Origin: Methylocella sp.
GTDB lineage: Bacteria > Pseudomonadota > Alphaproteobacteria > Rhizobiales > Beijerinckiaceae
NCBI GenBank assembly: GCA_037200525.1
Contig: JBBCGG010000001.1
Location: 1,406,501 to 1,470,500, forward strand
Direction of reading: 5' to 3'
DNA: 64,000 nucleotides
In this document: in pieces, positions 1 through 14,088 of the stretch
Position numbering within the stretch: the stretch's first letter is position 1
How the letters are laid out: each line of letters starts with the position of its first letter
Position numbers and translations under genes: made by a program
Notes under the pieces: model-generated
What the model saw: only the letters and a program-made list of their open reading frames with translations
The model's database searches: none
Told to the model about the DNA's origin: nothing

Positions 1-305
1 GGATCGCGGGGCCGTTCGACGGAAGCCGGCCTGCCACGGAATGAAAATCGCGGGCGCGAGATCGCGGCGAAGCGCGTGGCGAGCTTTCGCCCGGATTCGC
101 GAGCGGCTTCTGGCGTTGCGGCGGCTTTCGGGTCAGTTGACGTCTTAGCGGCTACTTTTGCCGGTTCATCACTCGACGCGACAAGACGCAACGCGCTGCT
201 TAGAGGACGCTCGGGATGCTCATTGGCGTAGTCAACAGCGTCTTGGCGTTTCCGATTGAGATAGGATGCTAAATCTGTCTGCGGTATCGATCGATGCGCG
301 ATCAT
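1..305 (-). CDS. Partial phage-element gene, unrecognised
   Basis: The frame is open from an ATG at 303-305 to the window edge, giving 101 visible codons with the 3' end missing. The start overlaps the stop of the preceding gene (ATGA), which supports translational coupling and membership of the packaging/tail operon. The first 35 or so residues are mixed (MIAHRSIPQTDLASYL...), followed by an Ala/Lys/Arg-rich stretch that looks like a linker. I recognise no domain. From its position after a Z-like tail gene it is probably another virion protein, but that is inference. Confidence 0.5.
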   Translation of the reverse strand, partial: MIAHRSIPQTDLASYLNRKRQDAVDYANEHPERPLSSALRLVASSDEPAKVAAKTSTDPKAAATPEAARESGRKLATRFAAISRPRFSFRGRPASVERPRD

Positions 306-901
306 GACGACGGCTCCGATGGTTCGGTAGGCTCGACAAGGGGCATGGATTCAACGCCCAACCGCCGCGTGAGTTGCCGACGAATCTCGGGCATGAACGT
401 TTTTTCTATGCTATCGTTGAATGCGGCGATGCATTCTTTGTGCGCCATTTCGCGCGCCAGATCGGGGCCGTACGAAAAGTCGATTGGCTCCCTCGCGCCG
501 CCCGGTCCACGATGCATCACGAAACCGGCAAGCGGACCTGATCCGCCGACTTGGAATGTGCGCGGGAATTGACGCCTCTCGCCCCAAGGAGCCGCTGAGA
601 AGCTTGATGCGCCAGAATAAGGTTTGTAATCCCGCAAATTTGTCGGGCCGCCTGTTCCTACGATGCGGTACGTTAAATTGACGAGCGACGATTTGTGTTC
701 AACGACGCTCTTGCTTATTGCGTTGTAGGCGATGCCAGTTGTCTGTGCGAGATAGCGCTTGACGGCAGTGAGAGCGATTCTACCTTGGTGATTCAGCACC
801 ATCGATATTAATTTGCGACTTCCCTGCTCGCCCATTTCGTTTAGCGAGGCTTGGAAATTGTCGACTAATTTCTTATGGAATTCTACCGAAAGTTCGATCA
901 T
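302..901 (-). CDS. Phage minor tail protein, Z-like
   Basis: A 199-residue protein resembling the lambda gpZ/tail-completion type in size, in its basic helical N-terminal half, and in the segment WGERRQFPRTF followed by FVMHRGPGGAREPI. The helical C-terminus ends in EIRRQLTRRLG. gpZ-type proteins help complete tails and join them to heads. Start and stop overlap both neighbours by 4 bp (ATGA), so it is co-translated with the genes on either side. In lambda, portal, protease and capsid genes lie between terminase and Z; here only one small gene does, so the module is compressed or deleted. The assignment rests on pattern recognition. Confidence 0.55.
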   Translation of the reverse strand: MIELSVEFHKKLVDNFQASLNEMGEQGSRKLISMVLNHQGRIALTAVKRYLAQTTGIAYNAISKSVVEHKSSLVNLTYRIVGTGGPTNLRDYKPYSGASSFSAAPWGERRQFPRTFQVGGSGPLAGFVMHRGPGGAREPIDFSYGPDLAREMAHKECIAAFNDSIEKTFMPEIRRQLTRRLGVESMPLVEPTEPSEPSS

Positions 902-1173
902 AAGATCGCCTCCCGCTGCATGCGCTCGATGCGAATCGCGTCAATGCGATGAAGGCCTACGCGCCAACCCTCGATATAAAGCGGCTCGCCAACGGCGCAC
1001 TGGCATAAGGCGTTCGCCGCTAAGTCAAATGCGCGCAGCCTGCGCGGTGACTCTCTCGGCTCGCCTTTGTAAATCGCGCGTTGCAGGCGGCCATAGGCGA
1101 TAGGCCTTTCGTCAAGATTAACGCCACGCGTGGGCGGCGCAATGAGTGTTCCAAACAAAATTTCAGTGGCCAT
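898..1173 (-). CDS. Small phage protein after the large terminase
   Basis: A 91-residue protein. The start chosen is ATG 1171-1173 (MATEILFGTLIAPP...), which overlaps the end of the large terminase by 11 bp; an upstream start would lie far inside the terminase. It is basic, with several Arg-rich stretches (PRESPRRLRAF, RIERMQREAIL). The position directly after the large terminase is where head-tail joining proteins often sit, but I cannot match it to a family. Its stop overlaps the start of the Z-like gene. Confidence 0.5.
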   Translation of the reverse strand: MATEILFGTLIAPPTRGVNLDERPIAYGRLQRAIYKGEPRESPRRLRAFDLAANALCQCAVGEPLYIEGWRVGLHRIDAIRIERMQREAIL

Positions 1174-3049
1174 GGGGATGCCTCGAAAAATTGCCAAAGT
1201 CGGCCATACTGCGCGTGCGAACGGGAACAAATTTGGGATTTGGAGGCGCACGGCGGGCGTCACGCTCCCTCATATTGACATAGGTGCAACTACCCTTCGC
1301 GACAATGTAGGCATAGTTCAACGCATCAAGAGCCTCATTACGCGCGCCTTGCTCAATTGGTCTAAATTCGACGATCGGGCGATTGTGCAAGTAGCGAACG
1401 TATCGGCGTTCAGATGCGACCTGTTCGAAAAATTGCTCGGGCAATGAATTGCTAAACCGAAATGGGAAAGGATTGCGCGGGCCGGGCGTATGTGTTGGCT
1501 CGCCTGCTGTATCAAGATACGGCAATGCAGCCAATCGCTCCAAAACCTCGACCTTGCCCCTATTGACATCAATCGAGAAGAATTTCGCCGCGCCTGATTT
1601 AGCGCTGAACGATTGTTGCCACATGGGACGTGGCGCTTGGCCGCCGATGCCCTTCACAGCGTAAATGTGTCTATGACCGCGCGGGGCGGTGAAATTCAAC
1701 ACGGCTTGCGGTCGCGATTCAGTTCCGGTTCCAGTGCCGCCATAATCGATCGCCGTGGCCTCAATCGGCAAAGGATACCCATAGACGGAATGCTGAAATT
1801 TCCGAGCGAGAATGTGATCTAGTTCCATCCATGTTTTTTGTTCGATCGTCGATCCGTGCAAGACGACGTGGGCCAAAACAAATGGTTGCCAAAATTTGGA
1901 CCAGCCTAAGAAACACGCTTCCAAACGATCATTCTGAACATCAACGCCGCATGTGATCATTAAGACTTCGGGAGGCAAGTCATCAAGGCTGAAATCTTCG
2001 ACGCGAGCCTGAAGGCTAAAAGGATCGATGTTATCGATCGACTGCTTGCTGCACTTACCTAAACTCGTGTTTTCAAAAACCATAAGTCGCGATGGATTGT
2101 TTTTCGCATCGGTAAATTTTTTCGCTAAATGGCCCCAGCGCTCGTTTCTAAACATGCTGATAAGAGAATTCAGACGGAAGCCGGCGTGGCCTTTCACCTC
2201 TGGAGCCGTGGCGCGCCATTCGCCCGCTTCGATCATTTTCGGTTTTTCGGATTCGTCGATCGCGCAACCGCAATGCGGACAAACCACATAGGCGTCGGCT
2301 GGATTGCCGGGCGTCCACGTCACATGCTCCCATAAAATTTCAAATGGGGTAAAACAGTGTGGGCATGGAACCTCGAAAATGCGGCGATCAGATTCGTTAT
2401 AAAGTTTTTGAATATTGGATAGCCCGTCAATTGTCGGCGTGCTGCCCATAATAATTTTGCGATCATCGTGGGCGATGGTGCGCTTAATCGCCAATTCGAT
2501 AGGGTCGCCCTCCTCAGTCACAACCATGGCGTCGATCTCATCGCCGAGCAAAATTTTCACGTCATGGCTGCGCAGATTGCGCGGAGATCTGGCGGCGACG
2601 ATTTTAAGGGAGCCACCTTTCGCAAAAAATTTTGTGGTGAGGGTTTCACGATCGCCAAATGCGGTATTTAAAAGCAAGCCTTGCAGAGTCGGACTCTCCG
2701 CGAACATAGGACTAACTTCATCGCGCGAGACTCGGGCGCAATCGTCTTCCGTAGGCATCAAAAGCAAGGTTGCTGATGGTCTTTCCGACGCCCAAAATCC
2801 AAGGGCTGAAATTATGCACTTCGTAAATCCGAGGCGCACTGCTTTGATGATGCTTACTTGCGGGAAGTCATGTGACCCGATGGCGTCGAGAATGCCGCGT
2901 TGGTACTTCCAAAGTCGCATTCGACCGGGGACCGGCGCGGCGCGGGCTGAAAGAACAATGTTGCTTTCAACCCAATCTGGGAGCGCTTGCCGATGCGATG
3001 GCCGGAAACCTTGCCAAAAATCACGGTCAAATTTGGATTTAGGCTCCAT
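1163..3049 (-). CDS. Phage terminase large subunit, GpA family
   Basis: This 628-residue protein matches the lambda GpA-type large terminase (Terminase_GpA), which cuts concatemeric phage DNA and drives it into proheads. The N-terminal ATPase has the family's unusual P-loop (KAVRLGFTK, about 69-77) in place of a classical Walker A, and a Walker B LLGDE (167-171). A zinc-binding pair of CPHC motifs follows at about 229-261, and the C-terminal half is the nuclease region. Length is normal for the family. It overlaps the small subunit gene by 11 bp. This is strong evidence that the element packages DNA or descends from one that did. Confidence 0.9.
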   Translation of the reverse strand: MEPKSKFDRDFWQGFRPSHRQALPDWVESNIVLSARAAPVPGRMRLWKYQRGILDAIGSHDFPQVSIIKAVRLGFTKCIISALGFWASERPSATLLLMPTEDDCARVSRDEVSPMFAESPTLQGLLLNTAFGDRETLTTKFFAKGGSLKIVAARSPRNLRSHDVKILLGDEIDAMVVTEEGDPIELAIKRTIAHDDRKIIMGSTPTIDGLSNIQKLYNESDRRIFEVPCPHCFTPFEILWEHVTWTPGNPADAYVVCPHCGCAIDESEKPKMIEAGEWRATAPEVKGHAGFRLNSLISMFRNERWGHLAKKFTDAKNNPSRLMVFENTSLGKCSKQSIDNIDPFSLQARVEDFSLDDLPPEVLMITCGVDVQNDRLEACFLGWSKFWQPFVLAHVVLHGSTIEQKTWMELDHILARKFQHSVYGYPLPIEATAIDYGGTGTGTESRPQAVLNFTAPRGHRHIYAVKGIGGQAPRPMWQQSFSAKSGAAKFFSIDVNRGKVEVLERLAALPYLDTAGEPTHTPGPRNPFPFRFSNSLPEQFFEQVASERRYVRYLHNRPIVEFRPIEQGARNEALDALNYAYIVAKGSCTYVNMRERDARRAPPNPKFVPVRTRSMADFGNFSRHPHGH

Positions 3050-3449
3050 GCGCCGCCACCTTGTTCGATGATGGTTTGCGTTTGGAGCTTAAGCGAGGCC
3101 CAGGCTTTGAAGTATATGGCCCTTTCGGCGTCACTTTGACGGGCTGAAGTTCAGTGAGCTTCGATACAACAGCGTCGATAGAATCGTTGGCGTGTTTTTC
3201 GAAAATATCGAAGAGCTGATCTTCGATCTTTGCATCGATCAAATCAGGCATGTTGCGTCGTGCGACGCCGGGCAATTCCATCAGGACGGCGCGGGCGCTG
3301 GCCGACAATCGCGTAATTAAAGCCTGGACGTCTTCAGCCCTAATGAAGTTGTCTTCGAGGTGTTTGCGGCGCAGATCGGTTAAGCGCGATTGCGCCCGCT
3401 TTAGCTGAACCGTGGCTTTGATGACCGATGGATCGAGCGTGGTGGGCAT
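3039..3449 (-). CDS. Putative terminase small subunit
   Basis: A 136-residue, mostly helical protein directly upstream of and overlapping the large terminase. An N-terminal coiled segment rich in Arg/Lys/Leu (about 13-30) is followed by a helical region and a basic, Pro/Ser/Lys-rich tail. In GpA-type systems this position holds the DNA-recognition (Nu1-like) subunit. No helix-turn-helix is obvious by eye, so the call rests on position and size. It is the first gene of the packaging operon; about 770 bp without a gene lie upstream. Confidence 0.55.
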   Translation of the reverse strand: MPTTLDPSVIKATVQLKRAQSRLTDLRRKHLEDNFIRAEDVQALITRLSASARAVLMELPGVARRNMPDLIDAKIEDQLFDIFEKHANDSIDAVVSKLTELQPVKVTPKGPYTSKPGPRLSSKRKPSSNKVAAHGA

Positions 3450-4220
3450 GATTTACCAATAATTTCGCGACATATTGACGCGACAATATCATGAAAATAC
3501 CCGCATGGCGAGAAAATCGATTTGAGAGGCTGCTGGCAGGCAAGAGCGCCGTTGCGCTACTCACATAGCCGCGAGTGCAAAGATGAGCGTCTAGGAGGGG
3601 TTTCTGTGGCGCGGCGGCCCGAGCGGAGCGGCGTTGCTCGCTGATTCAGCGGGTAAAACAAAACAATTGCTTACGCTCCCGGATATTCAGCGGCGGCGCT
3701 GCCGCATTTGGTGAGGCCTCGAGAAAGGACCCGCGCCAACTTAGACGGGACCTACACAGCGGCTAAGGTCTGGTTTTGCGCCTTGCCAACTGACGCGCGC
3801 TGGCGCTTACGTTTCAAACCGCTGGCTGCTTAGAGTTGGGGCCATGGCTGTCGAACCCCATTATATTGTTGCTTCGCTTTAGGCTGCCAGCGCCGAAGCC
3901 CACATGTGACAGCGTAGCCCAAGGCTGCCGCAAAGCGGCGGCGGCGTTGCCGCCCTGGCGGGAAGCCATAGAAATGCCTCCTGGGCGCGAATCGGGCGCT
4001 TTTGCGCAGTGTCAGTGCCCTAAAACGGCTCCGGAGCGTCCAGCCCCCCCTCCGCAAACGATTTATATAATCCAACGTTCATGTTTCGGAGGATAGCTCA
4101 ACAGCGGAGGCGGCGCTTGTTGACTTAAGAGTCAACGCGGCCAGGCTCAGGCATAGCAACGACCACCTGGCCACGCAGGATCGTTTTTCGACGCCTGCGC
4201 GTCAGCTTGGTACAGAGATG
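3450..4220. other. Gene-poor stretch upstream of the packaging operon
   Basis: I see no convincing gene in these 770 bases. They must hold the promoter for the terminase operon reading left. A perfect 7-bp hairpin (GTTGACT, TAAG loop, AGTCAAC) lies at 4119-4136 inside a sequence that superficially recalls a tRNA (see rejected items). The possible reading frames here have no recognisable domain and are treated as chance. Confidence 0.4.
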
Positions 4221-4559
4221 TCACTTCTGTTGTCGATTGTTCTGATATCCTTGGCACACCTTGAACCAGCCTGCCGTTTTGTCATCGCTTTCCTCCCAGC
4301 CCGGCAGGCATAAAACAATCCGATGAAATTTTTCATTGCACAAACCATGATTGGCCAGCAATCGAGGTTCGCCGTAATAATAAGGCCTTAGTGATTTGGC
4401 CCGAGCCCATACAGGAATTTCGGCCCAGCTAATTTCATCAGTCTGAATTCCAGTATCGCATGGCTTCCAATTCGCGATTATTATTTTGCCCGTCTCGTGC
4501 GCGTGCGCTGCTACTGTCGACAGCGCGAGAGGGAGCGCGATAATTGACGCCAATTTCAT
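4221..4559 (-). CDS. Small secreted protein, unrecognised
   Basis: A 112-residue protein with a clear Sec signal peptide (MKLASIIALPLALSTVAAHA, cleavage near residue 20). The mature part has four cysteines (CDTG, LCNE, LCLPG, VCQG) that could form two disulfides, and is rich in Trp and Tyr. The start overlaps the stop of the small upstream gene by 4 bp (ATGA), so the two form a unit. I recognise no family. A periplasmic or exported role is inferred from the signal peptide only. Confidence 0.55.
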   Translation of the reverse strand: MKLASIIALPLALSTVAAHAHETGKIIIANWKPCDTGIQTDEISWAEIPVWARAKSLRPYYYGEPRLLANHGLCNEKFHRIVLCLPGWEESDDKTAGWFKVCQGYQNNRQQK

Positions 4560-4720
4560 TTGCGACTGTCCTTCCGCGCGGCCATCGCCACAACGGCGAC
4601 GGGCGGCCCGCGCATAGTGATTTTGCGATAAACGGCGTCATCCGTCGCGCCTGCGGCGCGCATGTCGTGCGCAAGCTGCAAGATTTCCTGGCGCATTCGG
4701 GATGGCTTAGCTTTCGTCAT
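4556..4720 (-). CDS. Small basic helical protein
   Basis: About 54 residues from the ATG at 4718-4720 (MTKAKPSRMRQEILQLAHDM...). It is predicted to be helical and basic, with an AGATDDAVYRKI segment. A longer reading (start 4789) adds 23 residues of less protein-like sequence, so the shorter start is preferred. It is coupled to the secreted protein through an ATGA overlap and diverges from the HicB/HicA pair on the other strand. Function unknown. Confidence 0.4.
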   Translation of the reverse strand: MTKAKPSRMRQEILQLAHDMRAAGATDDAVYRKITMRGPPVAVVAMAARKDSRK

Positions 4721-4839
4721 GTTTTGCCTCCAGAGACGGCCTGCCAACGCGCGACGCTCGGAAGCCTTTTCCGTTCCATCGCAAGTCATTCCGTGCGATG
4801 CTTAATACGCGCCGTTTTTGCCAAAGGTCGGCCTTCCCG

Positions 4840-5037
4840 ATGATCTACAACGTCAAAATCCACTATGATGACGAAAAACGCATTTACTTCGTGTCGTCGT
4901 CGGATATTCCTGGCTTGCACGTGGAATCGGAAACATTCGACCAATTAATTGAAATCGTTCGCGATCTTGCGAGCGACTTATTGCCGGGCGACCGCGCGCT
5001 GGAAGCGATTGAGTTTCGCTTTCTTGTTCCGGCCTAG
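4840..5037 (+). CDS. HicB-like antitoxin (DUF1902 type)
   Basis: 65 residues starting at ATG 4840 (MIYNVKIHYDDEKRIYF). The pattern of a short beta strand, an acidic turn, YFVSSSDIPGLHVESE and a final helix is that of the HicB/DUF1902 partial RNase-H-like fold that binds and blocks HicA. The HicA gene begins on the very next base after its stop. The order antitoxin then toxin is common for the DUF1902 version. The pair sits between the putative origin repeats and the packaging genes, typical of cargo that stabilises a mobile element. Confidence 0.75.
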   Translation: MIYNVKIHYDDEKRIYFVSSSDIPGLHVESETFDQLIEIVRDLASDLLPGDRALEAIEFRFLVPA

Positions 5038-5235
5038 GTGGGCTCCTCCCTTTACCGCAAGCTGCGCAGCCTACTGACCGAGGCAGGATGCACCTTCGTT
5101 CGCCAAGGCAAAGGCTCACACGAAGTCTGGCATAGTCCGACCACCAAAATAAACTTCGCGGTCCCGAGCAATGTCGCCTTGGTTCACACCGCAAACGAAA
5201 TCCTGAAAAGCGCTGGCCTCCCCAAAGCGTTCTAA
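5038..5235 (+). CDS. hicA: HicA-type mRNA interferase toxin
   Basis: 65 residues, GTG start at 5038 immediately after the antitoxin stop. It has the compact double-stranded-RNA-binding-like HicA fold signature: a first helix (LYRKLRSLLTEAGC), the strand FVRQGKGSHEVWHSP with the catalytic His in GSHEVW, then a VPSN strand and a final helix ending EILKSAGL. HicA enzymes cut mRNA without ribosome dependence and are held by HicB. All core elements are present, so it is probably functional. Confidence 0.8.
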   Translation: MGSSLYRKLRSLLTEAGCTFVRQGKGSHEVWHSPTTKINFAVPSNVALVHTANEILKSAGLPKAF

Positions 5236-5347
5236 CCCGCTCGCCGATTCCAGCCCAACGGAGCCTGGCGGCTTTTGCGGCCATCGACGAGAGGCGGGTG
5301 TCGATCGACGCACGTCTGTGGCCTAAAAAACTCAACCCCAACCATTC

Positions 5348-5650
5348 AGACCAGTAGACCAGATGACCAGGTAAATTCGCATCTCTACGGTGGATTTTTC
5401 AGCAAAATTATATGAGACAGCCCAACAAGCTTAGCGTAGCAGCACCAAACATCGCCAAACGTACATCCTGTTCGTTTTTGTAGCTCAAATGCTGCAAAAT
5501 CCGGTCTATCCGGTCTATCCGGTCTGCTTCCCTCTATAGACCAGATAACTGACTGGAAATCTATCCAGTCTATCTGGTCTAGGTCTCCTGTTTCAGACCG
5601 GATAGACCAGATAACAAAAAGCAGGGTTTGGTCTGGGCTTTATCCGGTCT
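5348..5650. repeat. Cluster of GGTCTAT / ATAGACC repeats, putative origin
   Basis: About ten copies of a 7-9 bp unit, CC(G/A)GTCTAT or its complement ATAGACC(G/A)G, lie in 300 bp. Three are in direct tandem at 5501-5525, others are at 5348-5363, 5536-5544, 5565-5582, 5595-5610 and 5642-5650. The last touches the stop codon of the primase gene. Copies occur in both orientations. Repeats of this kind beside a primase/helicase gene are typical of replication origins of phages, plasmids and phage satellites. Repressor operators are an alternative. Confidence 0.65.
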
Positions 5651-8100
5651 CAAAAAGGCACGCTGTCAGGCCCCATTTGCCCTGGCGCGGAGGCCTTTGT
5701 CTGTTCTTCACGCGCTTTAGCCTCGAGGTTGGCTTTGGTGAGTTGTGCGCCCGGTACATCGTCACTATCGCCGCGCTCGTAATACCAACAACCGACCCGA
5801 GACCCGTTCACGCCGCCAAGGTGCTTATCGGTTTTGCTCTTGATCTGAATCCGTTCGAATTTAAGGTCGCGCTGCATTACTTGACCGACGCGCTTGGCCT
5901 GTCTGTCGCGCTCCACTCCAAGCGGAATATTAAGAACGTCCCAAAGGTCGCTGGCCAAGATCCATCCATTCACGCCGCCGTCCTTTTGTCCAAAACGGCG
6001 CGTCAGCTCCTCGGCGATGGGGTTTGGCTCTTGATGTTTTTTCTGCGCTTCCTCGGCATCGCCCCATAACTCTTTGCGCAGAGCAATCGACTCGCCCTGC
6101 GCCTCACGAAATGCTGCCTCGGCCCAGAGCTGATCGCGATCGGCCCGCAACGCGATGAGATCAAATACTTTGATCGGCACAACCCACCAGCGGCGGTTTT
6201 TTCCCGGCTTGAGAAACTGGCCTTCGTTGATCGTCCCGATGCAAACAAACTGCCGCTTGGCCGTGACGCGGCGGTGGCCATAGGCGGGACGCGCTTTATC
6301 TTCCTGCCTCGACAAAAAACTTTTGACCGTATCGTCTTCGCGCTTGCCGAGGGTCGCAAGCTCGCCAAACTCGATGATCCAGTGACCAACAGATTGCTCA
6401 ATAACCTCTTTGACGCTGGACCCAATCGTAAGCGAATCGGAAAACCATTCATCACGAACGGCCATCACGCGGCAAGCCGAGCTTTTGACCATTCCCTCCT
6501 CGCCCTGTAGGACAATCATCTCATCATGCTTGACGCCGGGTTGCCGAACGCGCCGAACCGCAGAGATCAGAAAAATAGAGCCGGTGGCGCGATTTAACGG
6601 CGTATCTTGCGCGCCGGCATAATCAATCAACCATTTATCAATGCGCGGGACGCCATCCCACGTCAGCCCGTCTAAATATTCGCGAACCGGATGGTATCGA
6701 TTAGTCTGCGCAAGATCGTTAATGACGCGGTTGAATTCATCCATTTTTGAGAGAAAGTGAAACTCATCCTCAATCCGAAAGCGCAGGCGCACCGCGCCAT
6801 CATCGGTGAGTTCGCCATCAAAATCAGGACCAAGCCCCTCCATCTCAGTCTGATAGGAAAATTGATTATAACGAAACTCGATCTTGAGTCTTGAAATCGC
6901 GAGACGGATATTCGATGAGCAGGCTGAGATTGCGCCTTTGTCGGTTTGCGCAAAGCCATCTGTCCTTGGACTATATTTGGTCTCTTGAGCCTGCGCTTTT
7001 TCAACCGCCTTCCGAGCCTTGGCAACTTGCGTCCGAGCCATTTCGGTTTGTGCACGCATCCCGCGTCTTTCGAGGAACGCTTCCGAAATTTTGTAGGCCG
7101 GATTGAGGAGCACATCGATAATGTCCTCATCCTTCATGCGATCTCGCACAAGCCCACATGCGACAGCAAAATAAGCTTCTGATCTCGACGGGTCGCGCTC
7201 TAATGGACCGTCTTTAATGCGATCCTGCAGATCCTTTGACAGTTTATTGAAATCGAATTTGCGAAAGGCCGGTTCTTTCTCTGCGTTTGTCGACGGGTCC
7301 CGAGTCGGAGATTGGGAGAACTGTTTTTCGAGCTTCTCTTTATCAAGCCGTTCGACGGTCCGGTCCATCAGCTCGTCGATGTTGGCAAACTCGACGTTAT
7401 AGCCTTCGAGCGCAGCGCCGGTGACGGTGATGTAACGCCCGGTATGCCTGTAGGTTTCGAGAGATCCGCCGTCCTCTAAATCATTAAACTTTCGTCCGCA
7501 TTTTTCGTCCTTTGCGCATAGTCCGATGATGCGTAAGCCGGTGCCGCTTGGCGTGACTTCGGCATAGGAGTGGGCCTGCTGCAAAAGTCGTATGGCCCAT
7601 GGTGAAATTGCGCCGGTTTGGGGATTGCGGCATTGATCAAGATCGAACGCAGCGAAGGGGCCCTCATACAGCATGAAGCCAATGCCTGCGGCCATATGCG
7701 CACTGGAACTCGCGGCATCGAATGAAGCCCATGTTCTCTTGTTTGTTGAGCTGGCCGGGGACTCTGGATCCCGCGCCTTAAAAGGTATTTTGGTTAGCTT
7801 GCCGCCATTCGACTCCCATCGCCAAATGACCCATTGCTTTTGAGCAAGCAACGGAGCCAGCGGCGTCGACGCTCTAATTCGCGATTCTGCCTGCGGGCAC
7901 CACGGCTCAAACCCACCAGGTCCGTGCGGATTGGCGGCCTGATAATCACGAATAGATTGACGCATCTCTGCGCAATTTTTGAGGGCTGGCGCAAATAGCG
8001 CGCGCTCGGCCTCGGTCAGATCCGCGTTTCGTAAATCTCCAAGAGTCGGGCGACGGGAGGCATTGATTTTTTCGCCCGAACAGGTTACAATTTCCACCAT
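5650..8100 (-). CDS. Primase / VapE-type replicative helicase
   Basis: 816 residues from ATG 8098-8100 (MVEIVTCSGEKI...). The N-terminal part (about 75-260) looks like a prim-pol domain, with acidic AAFDLDQC at 150-157 and SGTGLRI at 185-191. A linker follows, then a VirE/VapE-type helicase domain: EYLDGLTWDGVPRID (474-488), P-loop GEEGMVKSS (533-541), and a C-terminal region with GTINEGQFLKPGKNRRWW. Proteins of this design start replication of phage satellites and some prophages, usually at an origin beside the gene; the GGTCTAT cluster is exactly at its 3' end. In-frame sequence upstream of the chosen start has no domain character. Confidence 0.8.
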   Translation of the reverse strand: MVEIVTCSGEKINASRRPTLGDLRNADLTEAERALFAPALKNCAEMRQSIRDYQAANPHGPGGFEPWCPQAESRIRASTPLAPLLAQKQWVIWRWESNGGKLTKIPFKARDPESPASSTNKRTWASFDAASSSAHMAAGIGFMLYEGPFAAFDLDQCRNPQTGAISPWAIRLLQQAHSYAEVTPSGTGLRIIGLCAKDEKCGRKFNDLEDGGSLETYRHTGRYITVTGAALEGYNVEFANIDELMDRTVERLDKEKLEKQFSQSPTRDPSTNAEKEPAFRKFDFNKLSKDLQDRIKDGPLERDPSRSEAYFAVACGLVRDRMKDEDIIDVLLNPAYKISEAFLERRGMRAQTEMARTQVAKARKAVEKAQAQETKYSPRTDGFAQTDKGAISACSSNIRLAISRLKIEFRYNQFSYQTEMEGLGPDFDGELTDDGAVRLRFRIEDEFHFLSKMDEFNRVINDLAQTNRYHPVREYLDGLTWDGVPRIDKWLIDYAGAQDTPLNRATGSIFLISAVRRVRQPGVKHDEMIVLQGEEGMVKSSACRVMAVRDEWFSDSLTIGSSVKEVIEQSVGHWIIEFGELATLGKREDDTVKSFLSRQEDKARPAYGHRRVTAKRQFVCIGTINEGQFLKPGKNRRWWVVPIKVFDLIALRADRDQLWAEAAFREAQGESIALRKELWGDAEEAQKKHQEPNPIAEELTRRFGQKDGGVNGWILASDLWDVLNIPLGVERDRQAKRVGQVMQRDLKFERIQIKSKTDKHLGGVNGSRVGCWYYERGDSDDVPGAQLTKANLEAKAREEQTKASAPGQMGPDSVPF

Positions 8101-8954
8101 AGCTTGAGTCTCCCAACCGTGGGATTTTTGAGTTATGAAGCCAGCGCCCGCAAGCTTCAATGAATTGAATCGAGAAAGCCGCCAGGTCGCAATCCTTGGC
8201 GGCTTTTTCCATATTAGCACCTAATCGATGCATCCCCCAAAAGGATTCTCTCAACTTCACTCAAAGGCGTCGCATCCCAAGCGAGAGTCGCCTTCCAATT
8301 CGCGAGTTTTGGCGCGGGCTACGAGGCGATCGTAGAGAATGCCCCGCGATCGATCAGCGCCGGGCAGTGGACCATCGTCGAGCGTTACCCGGCTGGATGG
8401 ACGCGGCAACCGTCGAGCGGCCTTCAACGCTCGGCTAATTATAATCGTCGATCAGCTTGTTTTCGATCGCGTCAAGGCGATCAAGTTCGGGGGGCTAATC
8501 GATTAAGCCGGGCTCGCAACGGCATTCGAAGCCGGTTTCGCCTCTTTCGCTCATTGGAATGCATGCGAATCTGCTTCCGCAATTTCTAATCTCGATATCG
8601 AGAATGTGAGATGACGCAGCCTCTCCGTGTATGCAATTTTGTTGATGGCATGTTTTTGCTCTCCAGTTCCGATGTGCAACTGTCCGTGCATTCAGGGTTG
8701 CAGGACCTATGCATGGAATGGGGCGGCTCGCGTTCGCAGGCGAGCCGTTTAATCAAGCGCGGGGCCTTGGGCTCGAGTCTCTGGTTCTCATGCCATCGAT
8801 GCCCGGCTATGGTTCCAAGGCTCTCAGCGGGCCGCGCTGTCCAACGCCTTCCATGCCGCCAAGGGTGCTTTATCGTTCCTCCAGTTCCCCTGCTTTTGTA
8901 CAAACTGACGGGTCGAATAAACGGAATAGCGCGCCTCCCGATTTGTACAAGTCG
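8101..8954. other. Gene-poor stretch between primase and topoisomerase
   Basis: About 850 bases with no reading frame I can support on either strand. It separates the topoisomerase from the primase although both read left, so the primase probably has its own promoter here. It contains a perfect 8-bp inverted repeat CGGCTCGC/GCGAGCCG (8724-8747, followed by TTT) and the TTGTACAA palindromes listed separately. It may also be the scar of lost genes. Confidence 0.4.
8896..8950. promoter_or_regulatory. Paired TTGTACAA palindromes
   Basis: The 8-bp palindrome TTGTACAA occurs at 8896-8903 and 8943-8950, 47 bp apart, next to the 3' end of the topoisomerase gene. A third copy is inside that gene at 10974-10981, and a near copy (TTGTATAA) at 10905-10912. 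A regulator or structural protein of the element could bind here, but the function is unknown and three copies could be chance. Confidence 0.3.
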
Positions 8955-11489
8955 TCACCCCCTCGCGATCGACTGCACCGCGTCCTCCCACGACTCGTCC
9001 GGGTGTCTCTTGAGGTAGGCCTTGACGCGCTTGGTGAGGTCGGCGGGGACGGCGGCGTCATCTTCGCCAGCCATTTCGACAATGGCATCCTCGACGATGA
9101 CTTTGAGTTTGGCGGCGCGAAGGTTCATGCGGTAGGCGGCGTCGAGCAAACTCTTGGCTGGGGCGACCTTTTTGATTCCATGATAGTCTAACTTGCGCTC
9201 GACGAAGTCGATGAACTCCCGCGATGTCATCGCATTCAACTCGACTCGCTCGCCGCCGAGAAGAAATTCGATTTCTTCGTGTTTCGCGTCGTACTTTTCC
9301 AGCGTCGCTGCTAGCTTGTGCGGATCGTTCGCGATTGCGACCGCTTCTGACTCCAAACCCATCTCGTCTACGTCACGCAATCTTAAACCAAGACCGATCA
9401 CATTCGGCTTAGTGGCGAATTTGTATCGAGCCGTGTCGGCGTGCAATGTGCCGAAGATGCTGAACCCTGCGATGTCGAAATCATGCAGCACAAGCAGCGG
9501 GATCTTAAAGCGGCAACAGGTCCGATCAACGAGAAGCCGCGCCGCCGTGACAGACATGCCCTTGCTCGACATGACAGCAATGTCGTACCGCTCCGGCAGT
9601 TTCATCCGCTCCAAGAGCGGCATGAAGCCTTCCTTTTCGATGTAAAGAATGGCGGCGTAGCGATCAGCCGGGCCGAATGTTTTGACCTTGGCGTCGGCAA
9701 AACCAGCTTCAACCAGTTGCGTGGTGCTGAGATAGCCTTCAATATATTCTTTGGTCGCCAACGTGCCTAAGCCGAACGTCTTGCCAGTGTGCGGCTCCGT
9801 GAAGTGACCACGATCATCGTAGACGATATCCCAATCGGCTGTCTCGTCTGGGTGCGCGTTCGTGTAATCAGGCACCAATTTTTGCGTGAAGTAATTGGCT
9901 TCAATTTTGTCAAGGCCGGTGAGCCTCAACATTTCAGGCCGAGCCTGATAATAAATCTGTCGCGCATGGGCGGGCAATGTCCCGCCGTCCGACGCCTTCA
10001 TGTAGGCGTCCCGCATGACTCTGCGCGAGGCCTCCGTCAGCTTCATTGGCTTATCGCGCTTGGTCATGCGATCGTCGCGGCGCGCAAGAGCGCTCGGGTC
10101 GCGTTCTTCTTGCTTGCGCTGTTTGGTCCAGGTCTTTGTCACAAGCTCAAGCGCATCGAGGATCGCACTGCCAACTTCCGCAGGAAGATCGACGCGCGAC
10201 TTGCCGCGATCGCGATAGTCGATGCGCGGGCTGGCGACATGAACGAACAGCGCCACTGGTTCTTCGTCGGTAACGCGCATCTCAGTTAATTCGGCGTCGA
10301 GATCTTCGAAAGGGTTATCAATGCCGACCGACCAGTTAACGCCCGTCAGGAGTTCGCGCTCGAACGCCTTGTGCGGGCAGTAACCAAAGGCAATTTCCAC
10401 GAGATACGGAATGCCATAAAAAATGATAGGCGTCATTGTATATTTGAACGAACTTTGATCGACGCCGATCTCCTCGAATTTCGCAAGGATGTGCTCGGAA
10501 CCAATGACGCCGAGAAGCGCCGGTTTGACGGTGGCGCTTTCAGTCTGCATTGCGTCAAGCAACTTAGGAATGCGACCGGCATGGAAAAGCTCGGCGAGCG
10601 TTTGCCGTGACGCGCCCAGACTGTCGCAAATGGCCGCTGCTTTAGCCGATTGTTTCAAGCCGCGAAAGTCTGTGATGAACGCCCGCACGGTGCGCGGCGG
10701 AAGCTCGGAATCTTCGTCGAGGGCGATGCAATCAGCGGCCAGATTCCTAAGGCTTTCGGCGTTGTACCAATGAGGCGAGGTAGGGTCGCGCGGAAGCCAT
10801 TTTTTCCAATCGAGATTCGAGGGAGAGACCCTCATGATCAGTTTGCGGCCCCAGGTCAGCTTTATTTCCGCGTGCGGGTTCGACCAGCCATAAAGCCTGA
10901 CCATTTGTATAAATCGAGCCTGCATGTCGGGCGAAATTGAGCTTGCCCAATTCACCGTCATGCGGGTTCCGATTTGTACAAGACTGGCGGTTCCGGCGCG
11001 TCTAGTGACCGGCGTTTTCCGAACCGGGTCCACGTCGAAGGTGATGCGGCTGGCGACGCCACGGCTTTCTATGAGGGTGACGCCCTGATTGCCGTCCATC
11101 ACTCGGCCCATGGCCAAGATGGTCTTGAGCGCGTTGCCTTGCGCGCCGCGCGTCGGGGACACATAGGCCGCGCGTGACGATGTGCGGGTTTCATAGTCAC
11201 GGATGCGGTCGGTCATTTCCGTGCTGATGCCGGGGCCGTTGTCGGTAACGGTTATGGCAACGCCATCGGTTACAGCGATCGAGATTTTTGGCGCGACGCC
11301 AGCTTCCTCGCAGGCGTCAAGCGCGTTATCGACAAGCTCTTTCAGCACGACAAGCGGCCATTCCTCTTTCGCATGGCCGGTTTGGTTGATCAGCTCTTTT
11401 TCAGAAGTGAACTCAGCTAGCCGAGATGTCGTAAATGCGGAGCGAGTTAGCACATGTGCGATTGCGATTTTGCCGCCGACTATGTTCAC
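8955..11489 (-). CDS. Fused type IIB topoisomerase, Topo VIII-like
   Basis: 844 residues joining a Topo VI B-like half to a Topo VI A/Spo11-like half. B half: GHKL ATPase with N box ELVDNALDA (51-59), DNGPGI (83-88) and a Gly-rich lid TRGAQGNALKTI (113-124), then a transducer-like region to about 470. A half: winged-helix catalytic domain with RQIYY (510-514), Tyr514 matching the DNA-cleaving tyrosine, then a Toprim domain with Glu618 in IEKE and the acidic pair in LHDFDIAG (Asp670, Asp672). All key residues are present. Such B-A fusions are the Topo VIII subfamily, known from plasmids and integrated elements; they cut both strands and pass DNA. It overlaps the HTH gene by 4 bp. It may serve replication, resolution or conflict; which is not shown. 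Confidence 0.88.
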   Translation of the reverse strand: MNIVGGKIAIAHVLTRSAFTTSRLAEFTSEKELINQTGHAKEEWPLVVLKELVDNALDACEEAGVAPKISIAVTDGVAITVTDNGPGISTEMTDRIRDYETRTSSRAAYVSPTRGAQGNALKTILAMGRVMDGNQGVTLIESRGVASRITFDVDPVRKTPVTRRAGTASLVQIGTRMTVNWASSISPDMQARFIQMVRLYGWSNPHAEIKLTWGRKLIMRVSPSNLDWKKWLPRDPTSPHWYNAESLRNLAADCIALDEDSELPPRTVRAFITDFRGLKQSAKAAAICDSLGASRQTLAELFHAGRIPKLLDAMQTESATVKPALLGVIGSEHILAKFEEIGVDQSSFKYTMTPIIFYGIPYLVEIAFGYCPHKAFERELLTGVNWSVGIDNPFEDLDAELTEMRVTDEEPVALFVHVASPRIDYRDRGKSRVDLPAEVGSAILDALELVTKTWTKQRKQEERDPSALARRDDRMTKRDKPMKLTEASRRVMRDAYMKASDGGTLPAHARQIYYQARPEMLRLTGLDKIEANYFTQKLVPDYTNAHPDETADWDIVYDDRGHFTEPHTGKTFGLGTLATKEYIEGYLSTTQLVEAGFADAKVKTFGPADRYAAILYIEKEGFMPLLERMKLPERYDIAVMSSKGMSVTAARLLVDRTCCRFKIPLLVLHDFDIAGFSIFGTLHADTARYKFATKPNVIGLGLRLRDVDEMGLESEAVAIANDPHKLAATLEKYDAKHEEIEFLLGGERVELNAMTSREFIDFVERKLDYHGIKKVAPAKSLLDAAYRMNLRAAKLKVIVEDAIVEMAGEDDAAVPADLTKRVKAYLKRHPDESWEDAVQSIARG

Positions 11490-11746
11490 GATCGCACAGC
11501 CTTTTTACCTACGCGCGGCCGTGGCGGCGAGGAATGTTTCTCTTCGCTCTGGTGCGCCTCCAGGCGATCTAAAACATCATCGATCTGGTCCGCGAACCAA
11601 TAGTTGAGCCGCCCCCTTTTTATTGGCTGTTGAAACTTCAAATAAGCGTAAGCTGGATCATTCAACATTCTCCAAAGAGTAACATTGGAGATTTCGCCAA
11701 GGCGGCGGCATACCTCGGCCTGCTTGAGCAGAGCCCGACCAGTCAT
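11486..11746 (-). CDS. Small helix-turn-helix protein, excisionase-like
   Basis: 86 residues. The N-terminal part (ALLKQAEVCRRLGEISNVTLWRML) has the pattern of a winged or MerR/AlpA-type HTH found in excisionases and element regulators, followed by an acidic helix (DQIDDVLDRLEAH) and a basic tail. It is coupled to the topoisomerase by an ATGA overlap and is the first gene after the integrase region. Likely roles are directing excision with the integrase or controlling the promoter in the AT-rich region upstream. Which one cannot be told from sequence. Confidence 0.6.
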   Translation of the reverse strand: MTGRALLKQAEVCRRLGEISNVTLWRMLNDPAYAYLKFQQPIKRGRLNYWFADQIDDVLDRLEAHQSEEKHSSPPRPRVGKKAVRS

Positions 11747-11881
11747 AGTCTTTACCTTTGCTGTAGAGATGCCACCTTTCGCGGCCTGTCAAAGCAACGT
11801 GAGACAGCGGCGAAGTTGAGTCAAGCAGACGTGCAAAAAAAGATTCAACAGGCGCAAACGTAGCGGCTAAAAAGAAAGTAA

Positions 11882-11911
11882 ATAGAACTTTCGAAGCTTA
11901 CAAAGTTCTAT
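11882..11911. promoter_or_regulatory. 10-bp inverted repeat in the AT-rich promoter region
   Basis: Perfect arms ATAGAACTTT (11882-11891) and AAAGTTCTAT (11902-11911) around a 10-bp spacer. It lies in an AT-rich intergenic stretch (about 11,860-12,030) upstream of the HTH-topoisomerase operon and just downstream of the integrase stop. There is no T-run, so an operator is more likely than a terminator. The HTH protein is an obvious candidate binder. Confidence 0.4.
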
Positions 11912-12028
11912 CTAGTTAGCGAGTGGAAAAGTTATTACGCATTTAATTTAGAAAAAAGTGGCTTAATGAAATACAATTCGTTGAATATTAATTTCTGATT
12001 CTTATTTAAGAAAAAGTAGCTAAGCCGG

Positions 12029-13300
12029 TTATGAAATAATTATTCGAATTGCGCTTTCCAATAATTCCAGCGCGGCGCGCCGTTCCGCTGCAAAATCGTA
12101 ACGCTGATAAATTTGAACCAAGCCGCCGCTCTGGCCAACGTGATTGAGAATTTTTTCGGTCACTGCTTGATTGACGGCGAGCGAGGCGAGCTTACTTGCC
12201 GCCGTGCGTCTTAAGTCGTGAAGCGTCCAATGTGGCGCGACAAACAGTTGATCGAGTCGGCTCTTTGCTAGCCCGAAGTTGCGGGCGGGGCGGATGCCGC
12301 TCACCGTAAATACAAACGGACGATCTTCCGGCGCGCTTGCGATGATTTCATTCATCAATGGCGTCAGCGGAACGAAATGCGGTCGCCTGTTTTTTGTGCG
12401 CGACGCCGGTATATGCCATTCGCCGCCCTTTAGCTCATCGCGCCGAAGTCCGCCGACTTCATTAAGTCGCTGACCACTGATCAGAAGGAATTTAAAAATA
12501 TGTCCGTATGGATATCCAAACTGATCGCAGGCGGTCCAAAAGCGTTTGATCTCTTCGTCGCTGAGAATCCGATCGCGCGATGGGTTGATCTTCGGGCGCG
12601 ATAGGCCCTCCATCGGCGAGCGCTCTAAAAGGCCCCGCCCTATACACCATTTAAAAAACGTCGAAAGCCGCGCGAACATGGCTCGCGAAACTCCGTCCGA
12701 AATCTCGCCTTCCTTTCGTCGCCTTTTTGCTCCCGGAACGGTTCTATTTCTGATTTCATCGAGCAAGGCCACGATGTCGCGCTTTGTGACGTCGGCGACG
12801 GCCTTGGTTGCCCAACGATCGGCGAGGCCATCGGGGATGATTGCAAGGTCGCGAGTGAACCCAAAAAAGTGCGCCGTTTCTACCCAACGTCTTGTCCGGG
12901 GCTTTGCATGTTGCAAAACAAAATCCACCGCGAGTGCGCCAAAGGCTTTTTGAGAGCGCTCCGACGCTTCCGACGCAGCCGCCTCTATCTTCGCCGCCGC
13001 CGGATCTTGACCGCTCAGCCGGTCGAGAACCGCCGCCGCCGCAAATTTCCGGGCGATGGCCAGCGTCATCGGTCGCCCGATCGCTGGATCAGCGATGCCA
13101 GAGCCATCATCGAACGGCCCGAGAGTCAGTTTCGCCGAGCGACCATCCGGGCGGCGAAAACGCATGATCCAAGATTTTCGCCCGGTCGGGAAAACGACGA
13201 GCCGCAAGCCGGGGCAACCGCCGTCAGAAATCTCGGCGCTCTTCGCCTCGGGCTTCAGACTGAGAATGAGCTTCGTGGATAAAGTCTGTCGCTGCGTCAT
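12029..13300 (-). CDS. Tyrosine integrase (P4-like)
   Basis: 423 residues. A DUF4102-type N-terminal arm-binding domain (about 1-100: LVVFPTGRKSWIMRFRR, LTLGPF), a core-binding domain (about 115-235) and a C-terminal catalytic domain follow in order. The catalytic residues are visible: Arg278 in SGQRLNEV, Lys303, His361 and Arg364 in HDLRRTAAS, His387, and Tyr398 in IYQRY. Length is normal for P4-type integrases. It sits at the right end of element A. The attachment site should lie between its start and the 3' end of the TerC-like gene (about 13,300-13,430), but the partner end is outside the window. Confidence 0.92.
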   Translation of the reverse strand: MTQRQTLSTKLILSLKPEAKSAEISDGGCPGLRLVVFPTGRKSWIMRFRRPDGRSAKLTLGPFDDGSGIADPAIGRPMTLAIARKFAAAAVLDRLSGQDPAAAKIEAAASEASERSQKAFGALAVDFVLQHAKPRTRRWVETAHFFGFTRDLAIIPDGLADRWATKAVADVTKRDIVALLDEIRNRTVPGAKRRRKEGEISDGVSRAMFARLSTFFKWCIGRGLLERSPMEGLSRPKINPSRDRILSDEEIKRFWTACDQFGYPYGHIFKFLLISGQRLNEVGGLRRDELKGGEWHIPASRTKNRRPHFVPLTPLMNEIIASAPEDRPFVFTVSGIRPARNFGLAKSRLDQLFVAPHWTLHDLRRTAASKLASLAVNQAVTEKILNHVGQSGGLVQIYQRYDFAAERRAALELLESAIRIIIS

Positions 13301-13407
13301 AGCAAGGTAACGAGGTAAACAAAATCGCCTTTAACCCATGAAAGGCAACGAAAGTTCATGATAGGCTCGATGAGCAAAAATGTAAATCATTTCATGAGTT
13401 TGAAGAG

Positions 13408-14088
13408 TTACGACGAAGGTGGCGAAAGGCGCTGAAGCAGCCAAGCGGCTATCAGCACGAACGCCGCGCCCGCCGGCGCAAACCACCATGTCGCCAAGCC
13501 CGGCGCGTGCGTGCGCAAAAAGGCGGCGAGAGCGGGATCGGACCCGATGAGGTCGCCGGCGATCCAGCCGAGCAGGGCGGCCCCCGCCCAGACCAGAGCC
13601 GGAAAGCGGTCCAGCAGCCTAATCAGCAGGGTCGAGCCGAAGACGATCAGCGGAATCGACAAAACGAGGCCAAAGATGATCAGCAGGTGGGAGCCCTTCG
13701 CCGCCGCGGCGACGGCGAGGACATTGTCGACCGACATGATCGCATCGGCGAGGACAATGATGCGGATGCAAGCCCAGATCGTAGTGGGGGGCGCGACGTC
13801 CGGCGCGTATTCGTTCTCCCTTGCGAGGCGAATGGCGATTATGAGCAAAAGCGCGCCGCCGGCGATTTTGATGAAAGGCGTCGCCAGAAATTGCACGACT
13901 GAAAGCGTCAAGACGATGCGCAGGAGCACTGCTGCGCCGGCCCCGAGCGCGATGGCCCATCGGCGCTGCCGTTCAGGTAGAGAACGGGCCGCAAGAGCGA
14001 TGACCACAGCATTATCGTCCGAAAGAACAATATCGATCCAGATGATCTGGAGCAGAGCAATGAGAAAAGTAGTATCGGGAGGGTCCAT
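13408..14088 (-). CDS. TerC/YjbE-family integral membrane protein
   Basis: 226 residues with about seven membrane helices and the TerC family signatures: IDIVLSDDNAVVIALAARSL near the N-terminus and ADAIMSVDNVLAVAAAAKG in the middle, both with intramembrane aspartate pairs. YjbE-type members are linked to metal efflux and protection, notably of manganese. It is followed after 9 bp by pyroglutamyl peptidase, suggesting an operon. The C-terminal end abuts element A, so the 3' end of this gene may be the attachment site; the protein looks complete. Confidence 0.85.
   Translation of the reverse strand: MDPPDTTFLIALLQIIWIDIVLSDDNAVVIALAARSLPERQRRWAIALGAGAAVLLRIVLTLSVVQFLATPFIKIAGGALLLIIAIRLARENEYAPDVAPPTTIWACIRIIVLADAIMSVDNVLAVAAAAKGSHLLIIFGLVLSIPLIVFGSTLLIRLLDRFPALVWAGAALLGWIAGDLIGSDPALAAFLRTHAPGLATWWFAPAGAAFVLIAAWLLQRLSPPSS

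Follow-up and report, generated by a model that had tools for sequence, protein, structure and literature searches.

A Topo VIII-like fused topoisomerase with intact motifs in an integrated phage-derived element of Methylocella sp.

Introduction

Does a mobile element bring its own strand-passage enzyme to replicate? This question is raised by a gene in a 64,000-nucleotide stretch of the Methylocella sp. genome, referred to here as the window, in which a rare enzyme with intact motifs lies in an informative setting. Published work (PMC8185306 / PMC7614492 / PMC11302465) includes a Topo VIII of Paenibacillus polymyxa and places Topo VIII on plasmids or integrated elements. For the Topo VIII enzymes tested, these papers, among them a 2021 review, report weak or ATP-independent activity and varied inactivation states, as well as ATP-independent cleavage by one Topo VIII, and the review describes the roles in vivo as unclear. 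We propose, with a probability of roughly 0.6, that the topoisomerase of the window acts when a phage-derived integrative element replicates outside the chromosome.

Results and Discussion

An intact frame for a single-chain B-A topoisomerase

8955-11489, minus strand: Topo VIII-like fused B-A type IIB topoisomerase, 844 aa, GTG start, no internal stop

The first-pass annotation of this DNA had described an 844-residue frame with a full GHKL ATPase, Tyr514, Glu618 and Asp670/Asp672, and a motif scan found these residues to be exact. DNGPGI of the GHKL ATPase begins at residue 83, and RQIYY, from residue 510, makes Tyr514 the catalytic tyrosine. Within the Toprim, YIEKEGF from residue 616 supplies Glu618, and HDFD from residue 669 supplies Asp670 and Asp672. 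The Pfam domains followed the order B-A along one chain. HATPase_c (residues 47-108, 1.1e-8) and TOP6A-Spo11_Toprim (residues 614-759, 2.8e-12) scored above their curated cut-offs, and Topo-VIb_trans (residues 407-463, 2.9e-5) reached 24.3 bits against a cut-off of 24. Because homologues extend over most of its length and the catalytic motifs are intact in all 13 aligned relatives, the frame represents more than chance. An AlphaFold2 prediction of the full protein from a 4-row alignment failed (mean pLDDT 45.6, pTM 0.29).

Assignment to Topo VIII

By E values and cut-offs, the 844-aa protein was closer in sequence to the P. polymyxa Topo VIII than to Topo VI. A P. polymyxa plasmid protein (NC_017543.1), which we take to be the Topo VIII of this species and which may differ from the protein assayed in the literature, aligned with it at 25% identity over 793 aa (E 9.7e-42). 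The best Topo VI match of the whole protein in the PDB, Topo VI B 2q2e, reached 7.6e-10, a value obtained from a database of different size. Topo VI is recognized by separate A and B subunits that score above the NCBIfam models, whereas the window protein was a single chain and fell below the cut-off of every such model (best 99.2 bits vs 274). A profile check of the N-terminal half returned Topo VI B as the best match, and so no other GHKL family. The alignment to Topo VI B (1mx0) spanned residues 18-464, including residues 261-300, presumably the H2TH-like part. When five A halves were combined into a profile, it matched Topo VI A (1d3y) in the PDB at 9.4e-6.

The Pfam domains, the motifs and the 793-aa alignment to the P. 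polymyxa protein bore out the earlier description of a Topo VIII-like B-A fusion. These comparisons support the assignment of the protein as an additional member of the rare, known Topo VIII subfamily, and no new kind of enzyme. Like the P. polymyxa protein, it is a single B-A chain with GHKL ATPase, tyrosine and Toprim, and it shares with Topo VIII carriage by a plasmid or integrated element. It differs in that the H2TH-like stretch, shortened in the P. polymyxa clade, is kept in the window's clade, which also includes split B/A gene pairs. Topo VI, the archaeal and sporadically bacterial A2B2 enzyme, has the same domains and motifs, but the window enzyme is fused in one chain and lies far under all NCBIfam Topo VI cut-offs.

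Ends and gene content of the integrated element

The features of the element (window coordinates unless indicated otherwise) are as follows.

1-13464, no strand: window part of the integrated element (whole element G000:C1:1396252-1419964, 23.7 kb), from end repeats and congener gene order
13445-13464, no strand: right-hand 20-bp repeat, direct, forming the attachment-site core; lies where the terC-family gene 13408-14088 (TerC Pfam) has its 3' end
12029-13300, minus strand: tyrosine integrase with Arm-DNA-bind_3 (Pfam 1.2e-12, 8.1e-11; phrog_1 1.2e-50)
11486-11746, minus strand: 86-aa HTH protein, probably AlpA/Xis-like (phrog_66, weak, 5.4e-3)
5650-8220, minus strand: VapE-type primase-helicase (VapE-like_dom 1.9e-63; phrog_256 DNA helicase 1e-79; primase PHROGs over the N-terminal part)
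5356-5650, no strand: iteron-like cluster of TATCYGGTCT in both orientations, candidate replication origin, adjoining the 3' end of the primase gene
3039-3449, minus strand: terminase small subunit, TerS (phrog_57 7e-7)
1163-3049, minus strand: terminase large subunit, TerL, GpA type (PF05876 2e-67, PF20454 3e-57, phrog_15 5.1e-158)
302-901, minus strand: tail completion/neck1-like protein (phrog_27 5.4e-13; Aurantimonas phage AmM-1, 30.8%)

To the left, the element runs on for 10,249 bp beyond the start of the window. The left copy of the 20-bp repeat, at G000:C1:1396252, is identical to the right copy and lies 23.7 kb from it, and at each site the reading frame yields AFVLIAAWLL. Outside the left repeat are ORF288 and then imuB, the latter identified by Pfam IMS. 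A terC match was found in 11 of the 14 other genomes of the genus. Two of these congeners (G014 and G002; loci L069 and L070) had the uninterrupted order terC-ORF288-imuB, and two positive congeners are enough to establish this order; the other nine terC-bearing congeners had neither an ORF288 nor an imuB relative within their short loci. The end repeats, together with the uninterrupted order in 2/14 congeners, upheld the mobile-element setting claimed for the topoisomerase.

As the first-pass annotation had also claimed, Pfam and PHROGs matches placed integrase, primase-helicase and terminase genes in the same element as the topoisomerase, along with the iteron-like cluster. All on the minus strand, the order is integrase, HTH, topoisomerase, primase-helicase, iterons, TerS, TerL and neck gene, followed by defence-like genes. 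A gap of 734 bp separates the topoisomerase and primase-helicase genes. The window has 15 TATCYGGTCT sites, against an expectation of 3.29 in 64 kb, and 10 of them (7 exact and 3 that differ at one position) fall in the 295-bp iteron cluster; the pattern was picked after the repeats had been seen. TerL matched 728 phage records (best 34.3%, Acetobacter phage phiAP1), and a 216-aa ORF left of the window had weak protease/scaffold matches in PHROGs (4.7e-6).

The small HTH gene had been put forward as a partner of the topoisomerase gene. The 4-bp overlap of the two genes is real, but the idea of a special partnership did not hold. The 86-aa protein had no Pfam or NCBIfam match, and its sole match, the weak one above, is to a family annotated in PHROGs as 'excisionase and transcriptional regulator'. 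An HTH at the same place in locus L042, 25% identical over 81 aa, matched phrog_66 at 2.4e-8. A topoisomerase-specific regulator was rejected on these matches, and an AlpA/Xis-type protein is more likely.

Satellites of the P4/PICI type carry an integrase, an AlpA-like gene, a primase-helicase with iterons nearby and a small terminase. The window element resembles them in all of these and in the lack of recognized capsid or tail genes; it differs in having, in addition, TerL, a neck gene and the topoisomerase. Among 25 element ORFs scanned with PHROGs (10 + 10 + 5, with part of the small or opposite-strand ORFs included), none was recognized as a portal, major capsid or tail gene, so the element would be a satellite or a decayed prophage. 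The latter is also possible because TerS, TerL, the neck gene and the weak protease/scaffold-like ORF are present. The earlier term 'satellite-like' would fit the missing structural genes, but the genes retained may also fit a decayed prophage. No GpA-type TerL beyond that of the element was found in the genome, a result that concerns a single type of resident helper.

Two gene pairs of the element lie left of the window. At L002 14988-17954, an AAA_15 ATPase resembles PADLOC NsnB (6.2e-72), and its 360-aa neighbour matches phrog_25609 only; they are a candidate defence pair. At L002 11651-12491, an HTH gene overlaps a phrog_2523 gene; from this layout we would guess at a toxin-antitoxin pair.

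If the element were a decaying prophage, the topoisomerase might have lost its role even with its frame open. The unrecognized portal, major capsid and tail genes would fit, as would the left part of the element, where coding is sparse and a transposase-like ORF lies on the opposite strand, and the two decayed Topo VIII remnants of a congener (G007). We nevertheless consider this improbable: long open frames are present for the integrase, topoisomerase, primase-helicase and TerL, and the two end repeats agree at all 20 bp.

Gene neighbourhoods of homologues

Fourteen loci were compared (the window, L005, L023, L024, L025, L026, L028, L029, L042, L043, L044, L045, L046 and L064). A primase or replication-initiator gene adjoined the topoisomerase gene, or lay one small ORF off, on the same strand in 8/14, as a raw count. 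Besides the window, these loci and neighbours were:

L042: initiator (phrog_1032 3e-18)
L046: initiator, 76% identical to that of L042
L043: primase-like (5.5e-9), no Pfam match
L044: D5-type primase/initiator
L005: DUF3987 with PriCT
L064: Prim-Pol (1.2e-44)
L024: P4-family primase, by annotation

L043, L044 and L064 are contigs of <6 kb. The remaining six loci (L023, L025, L026, L028, L029 and L045), in five of which most ORFs were read from annotation only, had no adjacent replication gene; L023, a 15-kb plasmid, does encode CyRepA1, at a distance of about 3.5 kb from the topoisomerase. Locus L042 repeats the order integrase-HTH-topoisomerase, with the initiator behind. The topoisomerase gene overlaps the initiator gene by 4 bp in both L042 and L046, and their integrases differ; the two loci are not independent cases, since their topoisomerases are 95% identical. 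Most homologue loci carried plasmid, integrase or replication genes, and homologues were not confined to chromosomal settings, in line with the mobile setting of the window copy.

In L046 (IMG/VR, 1-7490), Topo VIII is followed by the initiator gene and then by one for a major head protein (phrog_617, 1.6e-36), with an integrase close by; this contig is perhaps a small capsid-carrying element.

An integrase was close to the topoisomerase in five loci (window, L042, L046, L005 and L028), and in L028 the two genes overlap by 4 bp. Such proximity, with the 4-bp overlap of the AlpA-like gene in the window, could point to an accessory of excision and integration that clears supercoils, knots and catenanes arising when the tyrosine recombinase acts on the att sites. 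This is unlikely to be the enzyme's main task, as replication genes were adjacent more often (8/14), the near-identical L042 and L046 topoisomerases stand beside different integrases, and the Synechococcus, Halalkalicoccus and P. polymyxa plasmid copies have no integrase annotated in the stretch examined.

In locus L045 (3390-11026, genome G955), a divergent 746-aa Topo VIII-like gene stands first in a run of genes on one strand; the others encode a ZorB-like/OmpA protein (1.4e-27) with a GmrSD_C (HNH-like) domain, a weak ZorA-like protein (1.3e-5) and two unknowns. This run is possibly a Zorya-like defence operon that includes a type IIB topoisomerase.

The earlier suggestion that the enzyme damages competing phage DNA, as a double-strand-cleaving weapon or defence factor, is very unlikely for the window copy: that distant homologue beside Zorya-like genes, the weak resemblance of the relatives' Toprim part to JetD/DUF2399, the defence-like genes of the element and the ATP-independent cleavage that the review reports for one Topo VIII would be compatible with it, but the window copy has no PADLOC match and thus no direct support, integration and replication genes flank it on both sides, and the protein has retained the whole of its strand-passage machinery, along with the GHKL ATPase and the H2TH-like stretch.

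A proposed role in replication of the element

We infer excision, co-expression, strand passage, decatenation and packaging by the element along the following lines. The integrase and the AlpA-like protein would excise a circle of about 24 kb, and the topoisomerase and the VapE-type primase-helicase would be made from the same strand. The primase-helicase would start replication at the iterons beside its own gene, and a topoisomerase dimer would relax supercoils ahead of the fork and decatenate the daughter circles. Strand passage would be ATP-gated and double-strand, through attack by Tyr514, the Toprim residues E618, D670 and D672, and the GHKL clamp. Terminase would ready the DNA to be packaged inside the capsid of a helper, or may have done so before the capsid genes were lost.

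Replication is favoured by the intact motifs, by the defined ends of the element, by the succession of integrase, HTH, topoisomerase, primase-helicase and iterons on one strand, and by the same-strand primase or initiator in 8/14 loci; the overlap with the initiator gene in L042 and L046, despite their different integrases, points the same way. Against it stand the six loci with no adjacent replication gene, the ZorA/ZorB-like company of L045, the dependence of L042 and L046 on one another, the uncontrolled adjacency count, the 734-bp gap in the window and the failed structure model, as do the weak or ATP-independent activities and inactivation states that the review gives for tested Topo VIII enzymes. 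Because the motifs are intact, the genome is one contig, the ends are defined, and a primase and candidate origin lie nearby, a direct test of whether the element replicates with its own strand-passage enzyme is possible.

More speculatively, and with the odds against it, the window's Topo VIII clade might be a replication topoisomerase dedicated to integrative elements of phage origin. Together with a primase or initiator it would form a portable cassette that moves among elements whose integrases are unrelated, and it could make a satellite independent of host gyrase and Topo IV. The B and A halves would be exchangeable (fused, split or possibly mixed with those of a second clade), and a Zorya-like operon would have recruited a distant version.

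Rarity and family structure

The topoisomerase family is rare. Homologues over most of its length were found in Paenibacillus, Halalkalicoccus, an Acidobacteria MAG (as two genes) and further genomes. No match was found in 50,697 phage records. Among 72,556 plasmid records 8 had matches, and in 3 the match covered at least 80% of the query; six of the eight were examined as loci, all but another P. polymyxa record and one from Salinibaculum (20% cover). A scan of genome contigs with the topoisomerase gave one relative (L005, the Acidobacteria MAG), as did the viral contig collection (L046, in one of six single-protein scans). Eleven of 149 relatives matched at E 1e-3, mostly through short N-terminal (GHKL) matches.

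With a 4-row profile at E 1e-15, and in genome sets that overlap, holders numbered 4/397 in the order (G000, G462 and Topo VI-like B frames in G031 and G464), 2/385 in the class (G000, G543) and 4/398 in the phylum (G000, G920, G955, G031). An A-half profile at E 1e-20 was run on the phylum to which the Acidobacteria MAG belongs and found 2/247, namely this MAG and G1228; it gave no additional holder in 150 relatives of G920 or 142 relatives of G543. One named alphaproteobacterial homologue was found, on an M. fujisawaense plasmid. The literature searched, apart from the primary Topo VIII papers Gadelle 2014 and Takahashi 2020, contained no paper joining topoisomerase VIII with an integrase or satellite; such papers may exist. 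The decayed Topo VIII remnants of congener G007 lie on two contigs (L030 9521-10865 and L031 1524-1875).

Two groups were firm in trees: group I (window, G543, L005, G1228, G920, Synechococcus) and group II (P. polymyxa, two Pseudomonas megaplasmids, M. fujisawaense). For these groups and for the half-wise, AU and fusion/fission tests, the Topo VI (G464) and Halalkalicoccus rows were dropped because of their long branches; with both kept, most inner branches were weak, and the single Topo VI row, on very long branches, sided with P. polymyxa when the A half was used and with the window when the B half was used. An alignment of 13 proteins showed the H2TH-like stretch kept in group I, which contains both fused forms and split B/A pairs (L005, G543, G1228). 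Fused and split relatives that keep this stretch bear on the origin of single-chain type IIB enzymes. Fusion or fission required two changes on each of the A and B trees, and a single clade of the three split rows was not rejected (p = 0.21 for A, p = 0.0503 for B).

The proteins of G462 (L042 9275-11659) and G955 (L045 8786-11026) grouped with group I in the A half and with group II in the B half, with splits of 100/100. AU tests, each run twice as complementary sets, did not reject an intermediate position of both proteins (p = 0.32 for the A half, p = 0.35 for the B half). The half-wise trees suggest that both may be mixed (chimeric) Topo VIII proteins.

Topo VI-like B genes were also observed in related bacteria, at L032 (G031) and L066 4307-7131 (G464). 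The G464 gene adjoins a 378-aa gene, which may encode an A subunit.
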